Origin: Candidatus Doudnabacteria bacterium
GTDB lineage: Bacteria; Patescibacteriota; Doudnabacteria; UBA920
Assembly (NCBI GenBank): GCA_031291995.1
Contig: JARLHZ010000010.1
Span: 1 to 37,154 of the forward strand
DNA: 37,154 nucleotides
Direction: 5' to 3'
Below, in pieces: positions 3,777 to 29,857 of this stretch. The number at the start of each line of letters is the position of its first letter. Position 1 is the first letter of the stretch. The position numbers and the translations under genes were made by a program. The notes below the pieces were generated by a model. That model was given only the letters and a program-made list of their open reading frames with translations. It was not told the DNA's origin and searched no databases.

Positions 3777-3795
3777 AAACAGTTTCAAAAAAAGT

Positions 3796-3824
3796 ACGCG
3801 AGGCAGCCGGAAGGCGCCTCGCGT
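3796..3824. terminator. Bidirectional terminator between rluB and the desaturase gene
   Basis: A perfect 9-bp stem, ACGCGAGGC (3796-3804) and GCCTCGCGT (3816-3824), with an 11-base loop. It has T residues on the plus side and a run of A residues on the left, giving a U-tract on the minus strand. It lies between two convergent genes and can serve both. Confidence 0.75.
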
Positions 3825-3859
3825 TTTGGATAAGTTTGTGCGGCAGTCATAACCGCCTC

Positions 3860-4585
3860 CTACCGGATGATTCTCATCGGCACTACGTTCTTGGCTTTAG
3901 CCAGACCGCAGCTTTCCAGCACGCGGATAAGTACCCACGCCGGATCATACTCGAACGTCTTCACAGACATCTTCGGCCGGGAAGGGTACGCGTGATGGTT
4001 GTTGTGCAACCCCTCGCCCGCTGTAAGTAACGCGATGGACTGCAGGTTGGTGGCCTTGTTGGGGAAATTGCGATAGCCCACCATGTGGCACACGCTGTTA
4101 ATGCTCGAATTCAGGAAAATATAGAGCACTACGTGCGCGAACCACGCTGTAAATCCCCACCAGATGCCGAACATCGCAGTAAAGATTAGGATTCCGCCAA
4201 TCCGGCCTATCCACTTACCATGCGGAATGCAATCGATTACATCGTCCTTCCAGTCCGGCGTGTACTTTGCGACCATCGCCGCATCCGAAGCGGCGGCGTG
4301 GTACATGAAATAGTTGCCAAACAGCACGGTCCACATGCCGCGCAGGTAAGGACTGTGCGGGTCGCCCTCGACGTCGGAGAAGTGATGGTGCTTGCGGTGC
4401 ACCGCAGCCCACTGGCGCGGGACAATTCCGGTAAACAGCGCCAGCTCCAGGTGCATCAGGAACCCTACGATCGGGTGAAGTTCCAGCCCCCGGTGCGTTT
4501 TGCACCGGTGGAGGTAAATCGTCGTGAAAAATACCGACGTTTGAAGGATCACCAGAGTGATGACCCCCATTGCCAAGAGACTCAT
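3860..4585 (-). CDS. Acyl-lipid/acyl-CoA delta-9-type fatty acid desaturase
   Basis: A membrane di-iron enzyme that uses O2 and electrons to introduce a double bond into an acyl chain. All three histidine boxes are present: HRCKTH, HRKHH and HNNHH (in EGLHNNHHAYP). Hydrophobic segments lie before and between the boxes as in the stearoyl-CoA desaturase family. I choose the ATG at 4585 (241 residues) because AAAGGGGG sits 10 bases upstream; an in-frame GTG at 4606 would place that Shine-Dalgarno inside the gene. A clear Shine-Dalgarno is unusual here. The gene appears more GC-rich and different in codon style from its neighbours, which suggests acquisition by transfer (inference). The requirement for O2 fits the oxidase operon at 16385. 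The electron donor and substrate are not identifiable. Confidence 0.88.
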   Translation of the reverse strand: MSLLAMGVITLVILQTSVFFTTIYLHRCKTHRGLELHPIVGFLMHLELALFTGIVPRQWAAVHRKHHHFSDVEGDPHSPYLRGMWTVLFGNYFMYHAAASDAAMVAKYTPDWKDDVIDCIPHGKWIGRIGGILIFTAMFGIWWGFTAWFAHVVLYIFLNSSINSVCHMVGYRNFPNKATNLQSIALLTAGEGLHNNHHAYPSRPKMSVKTFEYDPAWVLIRVLESCGLAKAKNVVPMRIIR

Positions 4586-4631
4586 CTTGATGAATCCCCC
4601 TTTCACCAGTAAGTATACTTGCCCAACAATT

Positions 4632-4660
4632 AAAAAGCCAACCTCTTAGCAGCTGGCTTC
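4632..4660 (-). terminator. Terminator of the broken deaminase gene
   Basis: On the minus strand AAGCCA (4659-4654) and TGGCTT (4640-4635) form a short stem followed by a T run (TTTTTAATTG). It lies about 20 bases past the stop codon at 4679 and ahead of the desaturase gene, which therefore probably has its own promoter. Confidence 0.5.
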
Positions 4661-4678
4661 ACAAAAAGGGAAAAAAAT

Positions 4679-5434
4679 TTATGAGACTAAATCATAAGGG
4701 GCTGGAGTATATCCTTGCTTCCAGGGCAAATCATTTTGATATTTATCTAGGGACAAGAACTTTTTCATTGCCATTTCCTCATTTGGCAAACCTAAAACAT
4801 CTTGCTCTGTGATATCCTTTTTTAATTTTATCTTCGGGACCCAAACTTCTCCGCCGTTGTTATCGGTCCCCATAAATTCCAAGTCATCTTGATCTTCATA
4901 TACCAAAGCGTCATCATTTACAAATATTATTTTGGTCTCGTCGCTCATAATTCCCTGTTTAACCAAATCCCTAAACAAATTTCTACAACTCATGCAGGAA
5001 TGTAAAACCGTCTGGCTATGATTAGCATCCTCCGCATGTTGACCTATTTTAGTATGATGTGAAGCCACCACAATTCCAGATATATACTCCGCACCGCCTA
5101 AAATAACCGAGCTACAGGCATTATTTTAAGCACACAGTTTATCCCAAGCATTCTGTTGATGCTCCCGAGGTTTAAAATTATGAGCGGATTCTTCAACGAA
5201 ACCGCCATCGACATGGGAATTTACCGCTATTACACTTGAACCGACACGAAAACCCCTGTAAGAAATCGCCTCGATGTGTTTGAGAATAGCATTAAGAATC
5301 AAGGAATTTTTTCTCTTTTCAAATTGCTCTCGCCCTCTTTCAATCCTTTTGACTACTTGCTCGGGTGAAAATTTGGGCCGTTCAGACGTTTGACCGAGCG
5401 TCTCAAGGTCTACCGTTTCGAATCTATTAGGCAT
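4679..5434 (-). pseudogene. Cytidine-deaminase-like gene interrupted by a stop codon at the catalytic Glu position
   Basis: One reading frame of 251 codons is split by a single in-frame TAA at 5126-5128 (codon 103). The first part ends SYRGFRVGSS...WDKLCA, then the stop, then NNACSSVILGG and, at codons 146-151, SCMSCR. Cytidine deaminases have Y-x-x-F-x-V-G-A, then a CAE/HAE motif (zinc Cys and catalytic Glu), then PCxxCR (two zinc Cys). Read this way the zinc Cys are codons 101, 147 and 150, and the stop replaces the Glu of CAE. GAA to TAA is one base change. The frame before and after is otherwise clean, including a 100-residue C-terminal tail that I do not recognise. The gene starts 5 bases after the ABC exporter gene. 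Explanations are a recent null mutation, a sequencing or assembly error, or recoding. Restart at the GTG at 5071 would give only the C-terminal half. Confidence 0.7.
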
Positions 5435-5439
5435 ATATG

Positions 5440-7269
5440 TTATTCTTCTTCCCCCAATTCCTGCCCCGCGCGGAGGCGCTGGGTTTGGAGGTTGTAAATT
5501 CTTGAGTATTGGCCGGCTTTTTCAAGGAGTTGTTTGTGGGTGCCGCGCTCTTTAATTTCGCCGTTGACCAGTAACACAATTTCGTCGCTGTCTATGACCG
5601 TGGCAAAACGGTGGGCCACGGTAATGGAAGTTACGCCTTTGCTGACTTCCAAAATTGATTTCCGGATTTCTTCTTCCGTGTGGCTGTCCAGTGCCGAGGT
5701 CGCCTCGTCGAAAATTAAAATATCGGGCCGCTTAATAATGCTGCGGCCGATGGCAATGCGTTGCTTTTCTCCTCCGCTTACCATTAAACCCCTTTCCCCG
5801 ACTTTTGTAAACAGGCCGTTACTGAGCTTGGCCAAAAACGGCTGCAAACTGGCTCGCTCGGCCGCGTCTTTCACCAAATCATCCGGCGCGTCAAAAGTGC
5901 CGTAACGAATATTGTCCGCTATGGTCGTATTAAACAACACGTTATCCTGCAAAACCAAACCAATGCGCTTATGCAGGCTGTGGGTGTCGTAATCTTTTAT
6001 CGGGCGGCCGTCGATTAAAATTTCGCCGGATGTCGGCTCGTAAAATCTCAGCAAAAGTTTAATCACCGTGGACTTGCCGCTGCCGGTCTGCCCGACCAAA
6101 GCCAGCTTTTTACCGGGCTCAACCAGAAACGATATGTTATTTAAAATTTGCCTTGAGACCTTCATTCCATGTTCATCCGCAATTTTATCCGTGTCCATCT
6201 GTCCCTCCCCGTAATCAAATGACACATTTTTGAACTCAACGCTCCCCTGCAGTTTATTTATCTTAATGGCATTTGGAATATCCTTAATGGTTACCGGCTC
6301 GTCGAGGACGCTCTGTAACCGGTCCACTGCGGCTATGCCTTCGGTGTATTTGGTGTAAATGTCGCCCAAATCATAGAGCGGCTGGTACACGGCAAAAGAA
6401 TAAAAATTAAACAGGATAACGTTGGCAAAAGACAATAAATTCCGGTAGGCCAAAACCGCGCCCCACCACAAAAGAACCACACGGGCCAAATTCACCACCG
6501 TACCCTGGGCAAACCCCAGGCCCTGGTATGCCAGGGTCTTTTTTTTCAGACGCAAATGCTGCAGCTGGTTGTCGTGCCGCAAGTTTTCCTCTTCGCGCCC
6601 CTCCGAAGAAAAAGACTTAACCAATTCCACGTGGGTAATGGCTTCAAAACTTGAGCCGAACATTTGTTCGTTAATTTTGTTTATCTCCACCTGCGTCTTT
6701 TTTATTTTCCGCGTGAACAGCCAGGTCACAAAAAAGAACAGCGGAATAAACCCGAACAGCGCCACGCCAATGCGCCAGGCTTTCCAAAACACAATAATAA
6801 ACACGACAACAATGGAAAAAGAGTTTTGAAAAATTTTGTCGAACATCACCTGAAACAGAGCCGTAACGTCATCACGGGCTTTGCTGAGTTTGCGGAACAG
6901 CTCGCCGCCTTTTTCACGGCTATGAAAGGACATCGGCAGTTCCAAAACGTGATGGTAAGCGTGCTCCAGCACGCGTATGCCAATCCGGTCGGCCACGGTA
7001 TTCACAAAATAGGTCTGTAAATTTTTGAACGTCCGCGCGCCAAAGGCCACCGCCACCCAGGCCACCACAATTAACATCAGGCTATGGAAAAACACGGCGG
7101 AAGACGGGAAGGTTTGGGCCTGCGCCAAATACTTGCTAATAATTGTGGCAAAAAAGAACGGCTCGATTAACGATAGGCTCTGGCTCAAAATAACAAACAC
7201 AAAAATCAGCGCGATTTTGCCGCGCTCCCCCTGCCAATATTTGGATAGGAATTTGAGGTATGGAAACAT
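5440..7269 (-). CDS. MsbA-like ABC exporter (fused membrane and ATPase domains)
   Basis: A 609-residue half-transporter that would work as a homodimer in the cytoplasmic membrane, exporting lipids or drugs; substrate unknown. The membrane domain (about 15-310) has six hydrophobic segments. The nucleotide-binding domain shows Walker A GQTGSGKST (393-401), Q-loop Gln441, signature SGGEKQR (498-504), Walker B ILIFDEATSALD (517-528) and the switch His553. Between the start of the ATPase domain (FKNVSFDYG) and the strand RQILNNISF there are about 18 extra residues (355-372) encoded by word-like DNA (GATGGACACGGAT, GCGGATGAACATGGA) resembling the spacer elements; family members usually have only a few residues there. 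The deaminase-like gene follows after 5 bases, so the two are probably one transcript. Confidence 0.9.
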   Translation of the reverse strand: MFPYLKFLSKYWQGERGKIALIFVFVILSQSLSLIEPFFFATIISKYLAQAQTFPSSAVFFHSLMLIVVAWVAVAFGARTFKNLQTYFVNTVADRIGIRVLEHAYHHVLELPMSFHSREKGGELFRKLSKARDDVTALFQVMFDKIFQNSFSIVVVFIIVFWKAWRIGVALFGFIPLFFFVTWLFTRKIKKTQVEINKINEQMFGSSFEAITHVELVKSFSSEGREEENLRHDNQLQHLRLKKKTLAYQGLGFAQGTVVNLARVVLLWWGAVLAYRNLLSFANVILFNFYSFAVYQPLYDLGDIYTKYTEGIAAVDRLQSVLDEPVTIKDIPNAIKINKLQGSVEFKNVSFDYGEGQMDTDKIADEHGMKVSRQILNNISFLVEPGKKLALVGQTGSGKSTVIKLLLRFYEPTSGEILIDGRPIKDYDTHSLHKRIGLVLQDNVLFNTTIADNIRYGTFDAPDDLVKDAAERASLQPFLAKLSNGLFTKVGERGLMVSGGEKQRIAIGRSIIKRPDILIFDEATSALDSHTEEEIRKSILEVSKGVTSITVAHRFATVIDSDEIVLLVNGEIKERGTHKQLLEKAGQYSRIYNLQTQRLRAGQELGEEE

Positions 7270-16384: not shown

Positions 16385-17305
16385 ATGATATCCAAACAAA
16401 AAATCGGACTTTATATTTTTCTGATTCTTGACGCGGTTTTAGTCGTCTTATGTTTTTTGCAGGTTTTTCATCCTATCTTCGGTCTTGAAGACTTTGGCTT
16501 ATTTAATGCCAAAGGACCAGTGGCCGCGGCCCAGGCCAGGCTGATTGTGACGGCATTTTTACTAATGTTAATTATTGTAATTCCGGTACTCACTGCCGGT
16601 TTTTTTGTTGCTTTTAAATACCGGGTCGGACGGAATGAAGATTACGACCCGGAGTGGGGACAAAAACACGGTTACTTAAAATTTTTTATGTGGGCATTTC
16701 CGGTTTTAATAATAATTTTTATTTCCATATTGAATTTTAAAAGCGCCCATAGTTTGGATCCGGCTCAGGCAATATCCGCGGGTAGTCCCCCGCTGACTAT
16801 CCAGGTTGTGGCGTTGCAGTGGAAATGGCTGTTTATTTATCCCGGCCAGAACATCGCGACTGTAAATTATATAGACATCCCGCAAAACGTGCCTCTACAT
16901 TTTGAGCTTACGGCCGACGCGCCTATGAGTTTGTTTTGGATCCCCCAGCTGGGCGGTGAAATGGCGGCGATGCAGGGAATGGTTACCGGGATAAATTTAA
17001 TGGCCACGCAGACAGGAACCTTTACCGGACAGAATTCCGAAATCAACGGCGAGGGTTACGCGCGTATGAAATTTACGGTAAATTCAACCTCACGGGCCAA
17101 TTTTGATGCCTGGGTTGCGGGAGTCAAAAAAAATTCGCCGATGTTGAACGAAGAAGAATATAATAAATTAATTCCGCCCAGCCAAAACAATGCGCCCGCC
17201 TATTATGGCAGTGTTGACGCAAATCTGTATAATAATGTTGTAATGAAGTTTACGGCTCCAAGTTCAGCCGCTGCAAGTAGTGTTCCCGCGATGTATATGA
17301 AATGA
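16385..17305 (+). CDS. cyoA: Cytochrome bo3-type quinol oxidase subunit II
   Basis: 306 residues. Two membrane helices (about 8-28 and 53-78) are followed, after DYDPEWGQKHGYLKF, by a third hydrophobic stretch (about 98-112) and a cupredoxin domain. In cytochrome c oxidases this domain binds CuA through a CxExC motif; here the equivalent region reads GQNSEINGEGYARMKF with no Cys, so CuA is absent and the enzyme must take electrons from quinol. LQWKWLFIYP, LFWIPQLGGEMAAMQGM and the start of subunit I downstream support the CyoA assignment. No clear lipobox is seen, unlike E. coli CyoA. The Ser/Ala-rich C-terminus is short. First gene of the operon. Confidence 0.9.
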   Translation: MISKQKIGLYIFLILDAVLVVLCFLQVFHPIFGLEDFGLFNAKGPVAAAQARLIVTAFLLMLIIVIPVLTAGFFVAFKYRVGRNEDYDPEWGQKHGYLKFFMWAFPVLIIIFISILNFKSAHSLDPAQAISAGSPPLTIQVVALQWKWLFIYPGQNIATVNYIDIPQNVPLHFELTADAPMSLFWIPQLGGEMAAMQGMVTGINLMATQTGTFTGQNSEINGEGYARMKFTVNSTSRANFDAWVAGVKKNSPMLNEEEYNKLIPPSQNNAPAYYGSVDANLYNNVVMKFTAPSSAAASSVPAMYMK

Positions 17306-17354
17306 AGCTTTCTCATTCCGGGACACACCGGCTTTAACAAATCTTAAAACATAA

Positions 17355-19316
17355 ATGCACTTCCTATTAGGCAATTTAACACTTGAGTCCTTACCCCACG
17401 AATGGTTTACCGTGGCGGGCACCGCGACCCTGATTTTGGGAGGTTTGTTTGTGGGCGGTTTACTGACATACTTTAAACGCTGGGTGTGGCTGTGGAAAAA
17501 CTGGCTCACGTCCACGGATCCCAAAAAAATCGGCGTGATGTACATTATAGTGGCGTCGCTGATGTTGTTCCGGGGCGCGGTGGACGCGGCCATGATATGG
17601 CTGCAACAATCCATTGCCGTTGGCGCGCACAACGGCTATTTAAGCCCTGACCACTTCCAGCAAATTTTTACGGCCCACGGAGATATTATGGTGTTCTTTG
17701 CCACCATGGGATTTTTGTTTGGACTCATAAATATTATTGTGCCGTTGCAAATCGGCGCGCGCGATTTGGCTTTCCCGTTTTTGAACAGTTTGGGGTTTTG
17801 GTTGTACGTGGCCGGCGCCATTTTAATTAATATGTTTTTTGCCTTTGGCGGCCAGTTCGCCTCGGCCGGCTGGCTATCGCTCCCTCCCCTGTCCGAAATC
17901 GCCTACAGTCCGGGCGTGGGCGTGGATTACTGGATATGGAGCCTGCAAATCAGCGGACTCGGCACGCTCATTGGCGGCATTAATTTTATTGTCACAATTT
18001 TAAAAATGCGCGCGCCGGGCATGAAGTTAATGGACATGCCGATGTTTACCTGGACTTCGCTTTGCAGCATGTTGCTTGTAGTTTCCGTGTTTCCGATACT
18101 GGCCATAACCATAAGCCTGTTATGGCTTGACCGCTACTTTGGCATGCACTTCTTTACTTCCGGTTTCGGCGGAAACCCCATGATGTACGTAAATTTAATT
18201 TGGATGTGGGGGCACCCCGAAGTCTATATTTTGGTTCTGCCCACCTTTGGCGTTTATTCCGAAATCGTTTCCACATTTTCGCAAAAAAAACTGTTCGGTT
18301 ACACGTCCATGGTTGTTGCCGCTTTTGGCATTACCGCGCTGGCGTGTTTGGTTTGGCTTCATCATTTTTTTACTATGGGCGCCGGTTCCGATGTCAACGC
18401 TTTTTTTGGAATTATGACCGGCGTAATTGCCATCCCCACGGGCGTGCAATTTATAAACTGGGTTGCCACAATGTACAAAGGCAAAATTACATTTATCTCG
18501 CCTTTGTATTGGTTTATGGGCTTTTTAGCCTGCTTTGCCTTTGGCGGCATGGCCGGCGTGCTTATGTCTTTGCCCGGCGCGGATTACCAGCTGCACAACA
18601 GTTTATTCCTGGTTGCCCATTTCCATACCATGATAGTCAGCGGCGCGCTGTTCGGAATTTTTGCGGGCATTACATACTGGTTTCCCAAAGTCACGGGTTT
18701 TAAATTAAACGAATCTTTGGGCAAAAAAGCTTTTTGGTGCTGGCTGATTGGCTTTATCCTGTCGTTCGGCCCGCTCTATATTTTGGGATTTTTGGGCGCC
18801 ACCCGCAGACTTGACCATTACGACGCGCCCGGCTGGCAATGGCTGTTTATTACCGCCGGCATCGGACTGTTAATAATCGGCTTGGGCGCGCTGTTTCAAG
18901 TCGCGCAAATAATTGTCAGTATTAAAGATAGAAAACAAAATGTCGCGGGCAACGACCCCTGGAACGGACGAACGCTGGAGTGGTCAACAAAATCCCCGGT
19001 GCCTTTTTACAATTTTGCGATAATTCCGACTGTAACCAACCGCGATCAATTTTGGGAGGATAAACAAGCTAAAACCCAAAACCTAAAACCCAAAACCTAT
19101 TCCGATATTACCATGCCCAAAAATACCGCTATGGCCATTTATTGTTCCGGCTTTATCTTTGCCGCGGGCTTTGCGTTTGTTTGGCATATCACCTGGTTGA
19201 TATTTGTAGGATTAATTGGCGCTATGGTTTGCGTAATCATCCGCGGACTTGATGAGCATACGGAATATACAATTACCGCCGCGGAAATAGAGAAGATGGA
19301 AAATATTAAACCCTAA
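17355..19316 (+). CDS. cyoB: Quinol oxidase subunit I with Gln in place of the K-channel Lys
   Basis: A 653-residue catalytic subunit that oxidises quinol, reduces O2 and moves protons. By comparison with E. coli CyoB from memory, the haem and CuB ligands are all present: His108 (TAHGD), His287 and Tyr291 (WGHPEVY), His336-His337 (WLHHFFTMG) and the two His of AHFHTM. The four quinol-site residues (E. coli Arg71, Asp75, His98, Gln101) are present as Arg73, Asp77, His100 and Gln103. The D-channel entrance (Asp137 of GARD and Asn144) is kept. The K-channel Lys (E. coli Lys362, in PTGVK) is Gln365 (PTGVQ, codon CAA at 18447-18449). The C-terminal region keeps the long CyoB form ending EIEKMEN. 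At 19069-19098 the coding DNA is a word repeat (AAAACCCAAAACC). Confidence 0.95.
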   Translation: MHFLLGNLTLESLPHEWFTVAGTATLILGGLFVGGLLTYFKRWVWLWKNWLTSTDPKKIGVMYIIVASLMLFRGAVDAAMIWLQQSIAVGAHNGYLSPDHFQQIFTAHGDIMVFFATMGFLFGLINIIVPLQIGARDLAFPFLNSLGFWLYVAGAILINMFFAFGGQFASAGWLSLPPLSEIAYSPGVGVDYWIWSLQISGLGTLIGGINFIVTILKMRAPGMKLMDMPMFTWTSLCSMLLVVSVFPILAITISLLWLDRYFGMHFFTSGFGGNPMMYVNLIWMWGHPEVYILVLPTFGVYSEIVSTFSQKKLFGYTSMVVAAFGITALACLVWLHHFFTMGAGSDVNAFFGIMTGVIAIPTGVQFINWVATMYKGKITFISPLYWFMGFLACFAFGGMAGVLMSLPGADYQLHNSLFLVAHFHTMIVSGALFGIFAGITYWFPKVTGFKLNESLGKKAFWCWLIGFILSFGPLYILGFLGATRRLDHYDAPGWQWLFITAGIGLLIIGLGALFQVAQIIVSIKDRKQNVAGNDPWNGRTLEWSTKSPVPFYNFAIIPTVTNRDQFWEDKQAKTQNLKPKTYSDITMPKNTAMAIYCSGFIFAAGFAFVWHITWLIFVGLIGAMVCVIIRGLDEHTEYTITAAEIEKMENIKP

Positions 19317-19317
19317 T

Positions 19318-19905
19318 ATGAGCGAAACCACCTTGGAGCACCATCACGAAAAAACCGAAAACGCCCGCTTTGGCTTCTGGGTTTATTTAATGACGGACCT
19401 GATTATGTTCAGCGCGCTGTTCGCCGCTTACGCGGTCTTACGTAATAATACCTTTGGCGGGCCGGGCGGCGGCGACATTTTTAACCTGCCTTTTGTATTA
19501 ACCGAAACTTTTATTTTATTGACCAGTAGTTTTACCTGCGGCTTGGCGACTGTATCGATAAACCAAAAAAAACTTAAGCAGGCGCTGTGGTGGTTAGGAG
19601 CGACATTCTTGCTCGGCGCGAGCTTCTTAATAATGGAACTTACCGAATTTCATCGACTGATTGCCGACGGCAACGGACCACAGCGCAGCGCCTTTTTGTC
19701 ATCTTACTTTACCTTGGTTGGCGCGCACGGACTGCATATTGCGGTTGGATTGCTGTGGATGATTATTGCGGGAATTGTCGCCTATAAACGCGGTTTGACC
19801 GAAAAAACCGCCAGTCAACTCACCCGCCTGGCCCTGTTCTGGCACTTTTTAGACTTAGTCTGGATTTTTATTTTTACAATAGTTTATTTAATCGGGGTAC
19901 TCTAA
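19318..19905 (+). CDS. cyoC: Quinol oxidase subunit III
   Basis: 195 residues with five hydrophobic segments, the size and form of CyoC. FGFWVYLMTDLIMFSALFAA at the start and HGLHIAVGLLWMI plus FWHFLDLVWIFIFTIVYLIG in the last helices are the family signatures; the Glu in LIMELTEFHRL is the conserved helix-III Glu region. It starts one base after the cyoB stop, so translation is probably coupled. It stabilises subunit I and contributes to quinol oxidase assembly. The N-terminus is His-rich (EHHHEK). Confidence 0.93.
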   Translation: MSETTLEHHHEKTENARFGFWVYLMTDLIMFSALFAAYAVLRNNTFGGPGGGDIFNLPFVLTETFILLTSSFTCGLATVSINQKKLKQALWWLGATFLLGASFLIMELTEFHRLIADGNGPQRSAFLSSYFTLVGAHGLHIAVGLLWMIIAGIVAYKRGLTEKTASQLTRLALFWHFLDLVWIFIFTIVYLIGVL

Positions 19906-19908
19906 AGC

Positions 19909-19975
19909 AGATATTAATGGATATTGGGATATTGATAGATATTGTCCCATAGGCAAGATCCAAATATCTTAATAT
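19909..19975. repeat. GATATT-word palindrome between cyoC and cyoD
   Basis: Four GATATT words on the left (19909-19942, including GATATTAATGGATATTGG) face AATATC words on the right (19963-19975). It fills the spacer between the cyoC stop and the cyoD ATG at 19985. GATATTAATGGA also occurs in the element at 37002-37090, 17 kb away. Confidence 0.65.
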
Positions 19976-19984
19976 CAAAAATTT

Positions 19985-20332
19985 ATGCCTACATTTAAAT
20001 CTTATCTCATTGGGTACATCGCTTCAATCCTGTTGATACTTTTGGCGTACTTGCCGGTGCAAATTCATTTGGCTTCAGGACACCGGTTGTTGTCCCATGG
20101 ATTCATTATGGGAGCCGTGATTCTATTGGCTATTGTCCAAATGATCGTTCAACTGATATTTTTTCTCCATCTCGGCAATAAAAACTCCCGATGGAATATA
20201 GTATTTTTAATTTCCACCATCGGCATTGTCTTAATTGTTGTTGCCGGTTCGGTTTGGATTATGACGAGTTTAAACAACAGCATGTCATCGCAGCAGATTG
20301 ATAACTACATGCAGGATCAAGGGAGCTTTTAA
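19985..20332 (+). CDS. cyoD: Quinol oxidase subunit IV
   Basis: 115 residues with three hydrophobic segments: about 8-28, 40-62 and 73-95. FKSYLIGYIASILLILLAY and FFLHLGNKNSRWNIVFLIST are typical of the CyoD family, including the conserved HL before the charged loop. It probably assists assembly of the CuB site. The context is decisive: cyoC is upstream and cyoE starts 3 bases downstream. Confidence 0.9.
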   Translation: MPTFKSYLIGYIASILLILLAYLPVQIHLASGHRLLSHGFIMGAVILLAIVQMIVQLIFFLHLGNKNSRWNIVFLISTIGIVLIVVAGSVWIMTSLNNSMSSQQIDNYMQDQGSF

Positions 20333-20335
20333 ACT

Positions 20336-21190
20336 ATGTTAAGAAACTATTACGCGTTAACTAAACCGGGTATTATTTACGGCAACGCCATAACCGCCGC
20401 AGCCGGATTTTTTCTGGCCGCCAAGGGCGAGATTGACTGGAAATTGATGCTAATGATGCTTGTCGGTTTGTCGTTAGTAATCGCTTCCGGGTGCGTGTTT
20501 AACAATTATATGGACCGCGACATAGACGGGCGCATGGAGCGCACCAAAAATCGCGCGCTACCGAGCGGCGCGGTGTCGCCCAAAGCCGCGATTATTTTTG
20601 CCGGTTTGCTTTTGTTTTTGGGGGTAATTGCTTTATATTTCCATACCACCAATAAAGCGCTAATCGCCGCCCTGGTCGGATTTTTTGTTTACGTATTTTT
20701 GTACACGCCGCTCAAGCGGCGGACGGTTTACGCGACATTAATCGGGAGCATTGCCGGAGCCACTCCCCCGGTTGTGGGTTACGCCGCGGTAACCAACCGC
20801 TTTGATTCGGGCGCGCTGATTTTATTTTTAATTTTGGTCTTCTGGCAAATGCCGCATTTTTACGCCATTGCCATTAGGCGAATTAAGGATTACAACGACG
20901 CGTCCATTCCCGTTCTGCCAATTACCAAAGGCATTTATGCCACAAAAATCCAAATGGCGCTCTATATTATAGGGTTCATAGTCGCTAGCGCCATGCTCAC
21001 GCTTTTTGGTTACGCCGGATATTTGTATTTTGCCGTTTCAACTTTGCTCGGTCTGGCTTGGCTGTGGAGATCTGTCCGGGGTTTTAAAACAGCCGATAAT
21101 ACGCTTTGGGCAAAAAAAGTGTTTTTATTTTCCTTAATTGTCCTCACTTCGCTTTGTGTTATAATTCCAATTGATCAATTAATTAAATAA
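20336..21190 (+). CDS. cyoE: Protohaem IX farnesyltransferase (haem O synthase)
   Basis: A 284-residue UbiA-type membrane prenyltransferase that adds farnesyl to haem B, giving the haem O used by bo3 oxidases. The first Asp-rich motif is NNYMDRDIDGRMERTKNR (57-74). The middle YTPLKRRT, GATPPVVGY and the second loop FWQMPHFYAIAIRRIKDY are all present. About nine hydrophobic segments. No haem A synthase (CtaA) is seen in this window, so haem O, not haem A, is the expected product. It starts 3 bases after the cyoD stop. Confidence 0.94.
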   Translation: MLRNYYALTKPGIIYGNAITAAAGFFLAAKGEIDWKLMLMMLVGLSLVIASGCVFNNYMDRDIDGRMERTKNRALPSGAVSPKAAIIFAGLLLFLGVIALYFHTTNKALIAALVGFFVYVFLYTPLKRRTVYATLIGSIAGATPPVVGYAAVTNRFDSGALILFLILVFWQMPHFYAIAIRRIKDYNDASIPVLPITKGIYATKIQMALYIIGFIVASAMLTLFGYAGYLYFAVSTLLGLAWLWRSVRGFKTADNTLWAKKVFLFSLIVLTSLCVIIPIDQLIK

Positions 21191-23420: not shown

Positions 23421-23688
23421 CCGCTTCATCAAACACTGACTCGCGCATATAAAGGTTCCCCGCCGCAAGCAGCGGGGTATTACTGCAAAGACATCGCTAC
23501 AATTGCGCGGCGAGCCGCGCGGTATTGAACCTGTATTAGCTCCTCGGCTCGCTCGGCCATAAATGGCCGGACTCGCTCTACGTCGCTAATAACAGACTCG
23601 CTTACGTCGTTAATAAACAGTCAGACTTGACTTAGGCCAATGCCTTTGCAATAATTTATTTGACATTTGATGATTGTCGAATTATTTT
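23421..23688. other. Repeat-rich spacer upstream of the homing endonuclease
   Basis: Non-coding. Contains hairpins CCCCGC/GCGGGG near 23459-23478, GCGCGGC-GA-GCCGCGC near 23506-23521 (7 bp) and CGGCCAT/ATGGCCG near 23553-23568. A diverged tandem repeat of about 25 bases (ACTCGCTCTACGTCGCTAAT, then ACTCGCTTACGTCGTTAAT) lies near 23571-23622. A TTGACA at 23660-23665 with TATTTT 17 bases on is promoter-like but too close to the ATG at 23689 to serve it. Confidence 0.6.
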
Positions 23689-24684
23689 ATGTATTTTAAT
23701 GAGTGGGGAAAACAAGAAATTATTAGGTTAAAAAGGCTTTACCCTCAAATGCGGGTAAAAAACCTGATCAAATTTTTCCCTAAACGTAATAAAGCAACTA
23801 TTGCGGCCAAGGCTATGAATCTCGGATTACTTTCGGCTAAGACCTGGCAAAACACCGACAATAAGCTTTTATGCTCTAGATTTGCTAATTCGTCCAAGAA
23901 AGAATTATTAAGCTTATTTCCCCGAAGGACATGGCCGGCCATTTTAGCTCAAGGGGAAAGACTGGGCATAAAAAGAAATAGAAATAAGCCAAGGTTAAAT
24001 ATAAATGAAAACTATTTTAGCAAATGGTCGCCTAATATGGCTTATATTCTTGGTTTTATTTTGGCGGATGGCTGTATTATTAAAGGCACTTACAAAGGAT
24101 ACAGCGACTCCCTGAAGTTCGGGGTTCAACTTAAAGATAAAGATATTTTGGAAAAAATTAAAATTGAATTGCGTTCCGGGCACCGTATATCAATTATTAG
24201 AAATGCTGCGCATTTATGCATTACGAGCCAAAAAATAGTTGACAGTTTGAAGCATTTAGGCATAACATATCAAAAGAGCTTAAACGAGATTGTCCCCGAT
24301 GTGCCTGACAAATATAAAAGGGATTTCGTTCGCGGGGTTATAGATGGCGATGGCGGGATCTCTTTTGATAAAAGAAGTTACCCCACCTTGGCATTATGCG
24401 GTGGAAAAAATACTGTCAGTTTTGTCAGAGATTACTTTTGGATAAAACAGAGGGCTTTCTCTGTTGTTGGAAAAAGGAAGTTTTCACCAAAAATTAACAA
24501 ATACTTATACGGCATTACTTATAGAGCTAATACTGCGAAAAAAATATCGCTTTTTTTATACAAAAATACAGCTTTATACCTTGACAGAAAATACAAATTG
24601 GCTCTAAGATGCCAAAACATCCAAATAAGACAAAGAATTAATTCGTCCCTCTATGAAAAATGGCAAGCATCTCATTCTGGTTGA
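23689..24684 (+). CDS. LAGLIDADG homing endonuclease with two N-terminal helix-turn-helix-like regions
   Basis: 331 residues from the ATG at 23689 (a TTG at 23674 is an alternative). The two LAGLIDADG helices are YILGFILADG (119-128) and FVRGVIDGDG (213-222), each with the metal-binding acidic residue, so a single chain could cut an asymmetric DNA site. Upstream are two similar segments (about 4-45 and 55-93, with KNLIKFFPKRNKATIAAKA and LLSLFPRRTWPAILAQGE) that resemble SANT/Myb-like DNA-binding helices. It is AT-richer than its surroundings. The last 32 bases overlap the start of topA in another frame. No intron or intein host is visible, so it appears free-standing. Confidence 0.85.
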   Translation: MYFNEWGKQEIIRLKRLYPQMRVKNLIKFFPKRNKATIAAKAMNLGLLSAKTWQNTDNKLLCSRFANSSKKELLSLFPRRTWPAILAQGERLGIKRNRNKPRLNINENYFSKWSPNMAYILGFILADGCIIKGTYKGYSDSLKFGVQLKDKDILEKIKIELRSGHRISIIRNAAHLCITSQKIVDSLKHLGITYQKSLNEIVPDVPDKYKRDFVRGVIDGDGGISFDKRSYPTLALCGGKNTVSFVRDYFWIKQRAFSVVGKRKFSPKINKYLYGITYRANTAKKISLFLYKNTALYLDRKYKLALRCQNIQIRQRINSSLYEKWQASHSG

Positions 24685-28456: not shown

Positions 28457-29716
28457 CTATTCATATTGGAGAGCCGTAATCGGATCCATTTTCGACGCTT
28501 GGCGGGCCGGCAGCACGCCAAAGGAAATTCCGATGGCGGCCGAAACTCCCACAGCCAATAAAATTGCGTAAACCGGGACGCTGAACGTCCAGGTTAGGCC
28601 GGAGGAAGTGGCGATTAAAGAAATTATCCAGCCCAAAAATCCGCCGAATAAAATCCCGATAACGCCGCCGATTATAGTGACTAAAATTGATTCCATTAAA
28701 AATTCACTAAGGATGTCGGAATTCTTCGCGCCCAAAGCTTTTTTTAAGCCAATTTCCGCGGTGCGCTCGGTTACGACCACATACATAATATTCATAATAC
28801 CCACCCCGCCCACTATTAAAGAAATAGCGGCTATGGCTATAAGTAAAATAGTAATTCCGTTAAAAATTACGTTAAACGTAGCCAATGCCTGCGCCTGGCT
28901 CTCTACCGTAAAATCGTATTTAACCGGATCGGTAATGCTATGGTTGTAAGCCATAATATTATTAATCTGGGCGGTGGTCACATCCGACAAATTAATATCT
29001 TTAAGCTGGACAACGCCGATGGCCAAATAATCTATGCCCAATAGTTTTTTCTGAGCGGTTCCCAGAGGAAGGTACAAACTATCGTCGGCCGTGCCGCCGC
29101 CGGCAAGTCCTAACGGATTATAAACTCCGATGACCTGGAAATTCAAATTTCCCACGTGTATTAACTGGCCTATGGGGTCAGTTTGATTAAATAAATTCTG
29201 AGCCAGAGTATCGCCTAAAATTGCCACCTGAGCCGCGCTATTGTCTTCGGCTTGGGTGTAAAAACGGCCTTCTTTTAATGTGTGCTGGTCGATTTGGAAT
29301 TTACTGGCGGACGCGCCGTAATACATGGCGCTTTTATCGGTATTGCCGTAGCTGACGACCGCCTGGCCGATAACCTCGCCATAGTCGCCGACAACGTTGT
29401 TTAATTTGGCAATGTCATCCAAGTCCCGCTGCTTAAAACTGGTAATGACAACTCCGGAAAATGCGGCCTCGCTGGGACCGCCCCCCGCCGAGCTGGCCGC
29501 GCGGTTTTTGGTGGTCGGCGGAACGCGCGTCTGAATAAACAGGGTATTACTGCCTAAAGCATTGACCTGATCGTTAATTAAACTCCGAAACCCCGCGCCG
29601 GCGGACAGCACTAAAATCACCGTGGAAATGCCGATCATAATTCCAAGTGTCGTCAATACCGTCCGAGCCGGATTGGCGGACAGCGCTTTTATGGATTGTT
29701 TGAAGGCGGTAAACAT
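28457..29716 (-). CDS. MacB/FtsX-family ABC permease (second copy)
   Basis: 419 residues, without an ATPase domain. An N-terminal membrane helix (about 18-38, TTLGIMIGISTVILVLSAG) is followed by a large extracytoplasmic MacB-like periplasmic core domain (about 45-280). Three C-terminal helices follow, containing the FtsX signature around GGVGIMNIMYVVVTERTAEI and GLKKALGAKNSDILSEFLME. The parallel permease at 29888 has the same layout, and the only ATPase of the operon is at 31279. The two permeases may therefore form a heterodimer around one ATPase pair. It is separated from the upstream permease by the 12-copy 9-mer array. Confidence 0.9.
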   Translation of the reverse strand: MFTAFKQSIKALSANPARTVLTTLGIMIGISTVILVLSAGAGFRSLINDQVNALGSNTLFIQTRVPPTTKNRAASSAGGGPSEAAFSGVVITSFKQRDLDDIAKLNNVVGDYGEVIGQAVVSYGNTDKSAMYYGASASKFQIDQHTLKEGRFYTQAEDNSAAQVAILGDTLAQNLFNQTDPIGQLIHVGNLNFQVIGVYNPLGLAGGGTADDSLYLPLGTAQKKLLGIDYLAIGVVQLKDINLSDVTTAQINNIMAYNHSITDPVKYDFTVESQAQALATFNVIFNGITILLIAIAAISLIVGGVGIMNIMYVVVTERTAEIGLKKALGAKNSDILSEFLMESILVTIIGGVIGILFGGFLGWIISLIATSSGLTWTFSVPVYAILLAVGVSAAIGISFGVLPARQASKMDPITALQYE

Positions 29717-29721
29717 AGATT

Positions 29722-29829
29722 GATTGACAAGATTGACAAGATTGACAAGATTGACAAGATTGACAAGATTGACAAGATTGACAAGATTGACAAGATTGAC
29801 AAGATTGACAAGATTGACAAGATTGACAA
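29722..29829. repeat. Twelve perfect tandem copies of a 9-mer
   Basis: The unit GATTGACAA is repeated 12 times without error (108 bases) between the two permease genes. A truncated GATT follows. Read on the minus strand it would encode Ser-Cys-Gln repeats, but it lies in the leader of the permease gene and I do not regard it as coding. Confidence 0.95.
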
Positions 29830-29857
29830 GATTTAACGACTGCTATTCTTGTCAATC
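29821..29857. repeat. Complementary arm facing the 9-mer array
   Basis: GATTGACAAGA (29821-29831, last array unit and flank) pairs perfectly with TCTTGTCAATC (29847-29857). Because the array is periodic, the single right arm could pair with any of the 12 units. Further related words (TCTTTTAACTC, AAATCTTGTTAATT) follow to about 29885. Confidence 0.8.

Follow-up and report, generated by a model that had tools for sequence, protein, structure and literature searches.

The closest described systems are the tetrameric cytidine deaminases (CDAs), exemplified by B. subtilis Cdd (1jtk), yeast CDD1 (1r5t), and the families PF00383 and TIGR01354. In tetrameric CDAs, Glu55 is essential and acts as a proton shuttle, Cys53, Cys88, and Cys91 bind zinc, and Asn42 and Glu44 of an N-x-E motif bind the substrate (PMC9897663). 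We analyzed a CDA-like gene with one internal stop codon in a 37,154-nucleotide stretch of Candidatus Doudnabacteria DNA (the window), which belongs to a 105-kb contig (C25) of a 1.49-Mb genome in 39 contigs with an estimated completeness of 94%. The protein read through the stop has the fold and motif order of tetrameric CDAs, including FxVG, the Cys of C-A-E, the CxxC zinc ligands, and the substrate-binding Asn. It differs from them by a TAA at the Glu codon and by an N-x-K motif, the latter as in nearly all Patescibacteria relatives; compared with the solved CDAs, to which it is 13-23% identical, it also has an extra loop insertion, a beta-hairpin, and a C-terminal extension. Blasticidin-S deaminases and the PRK06848-type cytidine deaminases have the superfamily and the active-site motifs in common with the window protein, but the latter falls far under the PRK06848 family cut-off (16 vs 131 bits). 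Its nearest relatives are two Doudnabacteria proteins (L004 of genome G007 and L003 of genome G034) that have an intact CAE and the N-x-K-P motif, whereas they are only ~29-31% identical to it, shorter, unbroken, and encoded in another gene slot. Taken together, the evidence makes it probable that the window gene is a recently inactivated accessory CDA-like gene, lost by an ordinary nonsense mutation.

The gene occupies 251 codons on the minus strand (4682..5434), followed by a terminal TAA at 4679-4681. Minus-strand translation of positions 4679-5434 reads M...LCA-TAA-NNACSS...SCMSCR...DLVS-TAA with no further stops. This is in line with the sequence-only reading, which had described a 251-codon frame interrupted only by one TAA and had placed the TAA at 5128: the internal TAA is codon 103 (5126..5128, minus strand). 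The open reading frame before it (5129..5434, minus strand) encodes a truncated product of 102 residues. The second half (4682..5125, minus strand) is open and homologous, its earliest in-frame starts being GTG at codons 122/123 and ATG at codon 148. Given the dinucleotide composition of the gene, an open continuation of 149 codons has a chance probability of about 1e-4, and in the alignment the homology of the relatives spans the stop on both flanks. The frame is identical on either side of the TAA, and the ATG right after it is out of frame. Neither a frameshift nor a recoding signal was found around codon 103, and the frame has no second internal stop. Since GC3 is also alike in both halves (0.373 and 0.378), the loss appears to be recent, which bears out the earlier argument that an uninterrupted second half points to a recent or tolerated change.

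The stop falls on the catalytic glutamate codon, the equivalent of Glu55 in tetrameric CDAs. The stop column is Glu in all five Doudnabacteria relatives found in whole genomes and in 9/9 Patescibacteria relatives in a larger alignment, where none of the nine has a stop; the Glu context is C-A-E, or C-G-E in one relative (G004). The column is anchored by the invariant Cys101, Cys147, and Cys150, and the later CxxC Cys pair is kept in all relatives. A profile of these sequences matches solved cytidine deaminases (2d30, 1jtk, 1r5t, and others) with E-values down to 8.8e-13 and places the stop column on their CAE Glu. All three zinc ligands are present in the read-through frame, namely Cys101 of the C-A-[E] motif (5132..5134, minus strand) and Cys147-x-x-Cys150 of SCMSCR (4985..4996, minus strand), and the last two fall after the stop. 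The glutamate of C(A/G)E is thus missing from the window gene, with TAA in its place, as had been proposed from the letters of the gene; the comparison with relatives suggested then gave Glu in every case. The Glu of QHAED, named in the sequence-only reading as a possible refutation, was considered as the catalytic residue and rejected on alignment, because it sits in a four-residue loop insertion absent from the relatives; the insertion region (residues 129-140) is of low confidence in the AlphaFold2 model.

The structural comparison agrees with this assignment. The AlphaFold2 model of the read-through protein, in which Gln was written for TAA, had a mean pLDDT of 76.5 and a pTM of 0.78; residue 103 opens helix 102-112, and Cys147/150 lie at the start of helix 148-159. 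The best Foldseek matches were all CDAs (E 1.9e-7, probability 1.00, TM 0.6-0.76 on target length), and the top of the list held only CDAs and blasticidin-S deaminases. The read-through protein is accordingly predicted to have the cytidine-deaminase fold. It had no Pfam match and remained under the cut-offs of PF00383, TIGR01354, and PRK06848, the last being its sole NCBIfam match (E 0.0066 to 0.011; 15.8 bits against a cut-off of 131). The zinc ligands, the modeled CDA fold, and the homology to solved CDAs uphold its identification as a deaminase. In the substrate-binding motif, Asn86 is kept and Lys88 replaces the Glu of N-x-E, and Lys occupies that site in 9 of the 10 aligned rows. Because N-x-E is replaced by N-x-K, the substrate of this family may differ from plain cytidine.

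In the reading that we favor, Cys101, Cys147, and Cys150 of the ancestral enzyme would have held the zinc ion, and Glu103 would have shuttled a proton in the hydrolytic deamination of a cytosine-type substrate. A single nonsense substitution would then have changed the Glu codon to TAA, so that translation would end after 102 residues and leave a fragment that lacks the Glu and keeps only one of the three zinc ligands, from which no active enzyme is expected. The allele is presumably fixed or common in the population, the product would be absent, and the substrate was probably of cytosine type. As is characteristic of a nonsense pseudogene, the gene has intact relatives and loses essential residues through the disabling change.

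How surprising the position of the stop is was estimated by counting nonsense changes, with codon 103 taken as Glu as in the relatives. Stop-creating changes made up 109 of the 2259 single substitutions possible in the gene; one of these lies at codon 103, and the number rises to four when the Cys codons of the three zinc ligands are included. Judged after the fact, the chance of such a coincidence is thus about 1% if only codon 103 counts and 4% if all the key residues do. The low chance of a random hit on the catalytic codon that had been remarked upon is borne out (1/109) but is no sign of special selection: any stop within the first ~150 codons would abolish activity equally, so the position is no evidence of selection, and reading selection for loss of activity from this codon is unsupported. 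The stop position would then be a coincidence. It is quite unlikely, albeit compatible with an ordinary nonsense mutation, that the loss of deaminase activity was itself selected, for instance if the enzyme was a burden or a mutagen for the cell producing it. Two domains encoded in the same chromosomal slot in related genomes (the second of G001 and the first of G018; see below) have lost catalytic or zinc residues, as such selection would predict, but these decayed domains are partners in two-domain proteins rather than nonsense alleles, and the stop position is uninformative at 1/109 for the codon and 4/109 for the key residues. A striking stop on a catalytic codon needs neither recoding nor special selection, and an ordinary recent nonsense mutation gives such a coincidence about once per hundred.

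The genome is metagenome-assembled, and a single substitution in an undecayed frame is exactly how an error would look. It is nonetheless unlikely that the TAA stems from sequencing, consensus building, or binning, or belongs to a minority allele in a population with an intact gene. No conserved gene had an internal stop in 117.7 kb of coding sequence of the window genome (G000) compared with relatives in 137 segments; from this, the estimated chance that an error put a stop into a gene of comparable length is at most 2% or so. The only broken genes in the 117.7 kb were GIY-YIG-like elements and one short, questionable match (86 residues); the other stops in these alignments lay upstream of start codons or at match ends. 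GIY-YIG endonuclease-like relics carry one in-frame stop (L028:12180-12446) or three (L022:16534-16770), and a tRNA-Pro gene lies about 35 bp from the latter relic.

In-frame stops showing signs of read-through are reportedly widespread in bacteria (Belinky et al. 2021, PMC7918605), and those genes resemble the window gene in having a homologous frame that is open except for one stop. The window gene differs from them in that its stop is not conserved (present in 0/9 relatives) and no UAA-reading tRNA was found; the recoding routes named in that work use TGA and TAG, not TAA. Among 44 tRNA matches in the genome, with anticodons called by ARAGORN or, where ARAGORN missed them, taken from Rfam alignments, the UUA anticodon was absent. 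Moreover, in the 0.66 Mb of the genome that was sampled, more long ORFs end in TAA (181 of 294) than in any other stop codon. Despite the open and homologous second half, decoding of the TAA as Glu or Gln to give a low-level functional enzyme is highly improbable, and the recoding that the sequence-only reading had listed among its explanations finds no support. Among the tRNA matches, three stand consecutively at L128:4141-4368 (G000:C16:29141-29368); two of them, with anticodons UGU and GUG by alignment reading, were not called by ARAGORN and have an unusual T-arm without the usual UUCGA.

Both halves of the gene are open, as would be required if a new function had been gained by the truncated 102-residue protein or by a C-terminal half translated from a restart. 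There is very little chance of this, given that the N-terminal piece ends at the start of the active-site-forming helix of the AlphaFold2 model and that the possible restarts (GTG 122/123 or ATG 148) have no clear ribosome-binding site; ATG 148 lies within the zinc motif. None of the relatives carries the halves as separate genes, an arrangement that had been named as a possible refutation of a stopped deaminase gene.

The gene was accessory, as follows from its low GC3 (0.375 vs 0.57-0.74 in its neighbors), the lack of a close relative in the genus, and the presence in the same genome of a separate intact PF00383 deaminase (G000:C24, E 6.6e-25). Seven further genomes of the genus were searched and gave no close ortholog, the nearest sequences being those of G007 and G034, nor was one found in 49 genomes of the order; 380 genomes of the phylum gave only distant ones, and GTDB contigs, IMG/VR, phages, and plasmids gave no close ortholog. 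The flanks have no mobile-element-like repeats, and the deaminases matched no PADLOC defence model.

Directly upstream is an ABC exporter gene (5440..7269, minus strand), whose stop is 5 bp from the deaminase ATG; owing to this spacing, the two genes are probably on one transcript. Downstream lies a fatty-acid desaturase gene (PF00487; 3860..4606, minus strand), for which no counterpart was found in the rest of the genus (seven genomes). A pairing of such deaminases with ABC exporters as a rule was rejected, since outside the bacterial family the relatives adjoin unrelated genes. Within the family, the gene occupies a syntenic but variable slot (3777-5440 in the window) between the NRAMP/ABC exporter genes and a gene for an RsuA-type pseudouridine synthase, and CDA-like deaminases are present in 6 of about 12 readable slots. 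In addition to the window genome, these are the slots of G001 (L049:709-1803) and G018 (L158:3132-4229), both encoding two-domain proteins; G003 (L070:2283-2855) and G004 (L069:5362-5847), for which synteny was checked on the exporter side only; and G016 (L073:5656-6369), where the deaminase gene follows the NRAMP gene with no ABC gene between. Other genes fill the slot in G002 (a transposase, at a contig end), G005, G006, G007, G012, and G015.

The 22 genomes of the family have ten CDA-like loci, the PF00383 housekeeping-type gene left out of the count, and six of them are in the slot. If loci were placed at random, the chance that five of the remaining nine fell there would be about 2e-12, a figure that assumes independence, which shared descent breaks. 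The slot and related sequences form at least three groups in a poorly supported tree with long branches (window, G016, G007, and G034; G004, G044, and G033; G001 and G003). Domain 2 of G001 and domain 1 of G018 have no zinc motifs, while in domain 2 of G018 DAE (Asp-Ala-Glu) replaces CAE and SCALC is intact. These patterns are consistent with either repeated replacement or one old fast-changing gene. A more far-reaching proposal, which we regard as speculative, is that genes turn over in this slot: a variety of CDA-like deaminases, some with an altered N-x-K substrate pocket, would be acquired time and again, remodeled into tandem-domain proteins, and lost, because the need they serve is passing and their activity costly; that need might, under the same proposal, be nucleoside-antibiotic detoxification or conflict with phages or neighbors. 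If so, the stop at the catalytic codon in the window would be one of these losses. Highly divergent CDA-like enzymes are retained in streamlined Patescibacteria, in this family repeatedly at one chromosomal place, and the recurrent slot makes the cellular role of these enzymes testable, so that the context matters more than the stop itself.

Several further features of the window were noted. ORFs at 16385-21190 resemble cytochrome oxidase subunits II, I, III, and IV and a heme farnesyltransferase; cytochrome oxidase genes are unusual for Patescibacteria. Operons for cytochrome bo3 oxidase have been reported in soil Doudnabacteria (PMC8407418). At 23674-24684, an ORF containing LGFILADG appears similar to LAGLIDADG endonucleases and overlaps the start (24653) of a putative topoisomerase I gene. 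Finally, a minus-strand ORF at 29574-29855, close to the start of a MacB-like permease gene, contains a run of repeated CQS triplets encoded by a 9-bp tandem unit.
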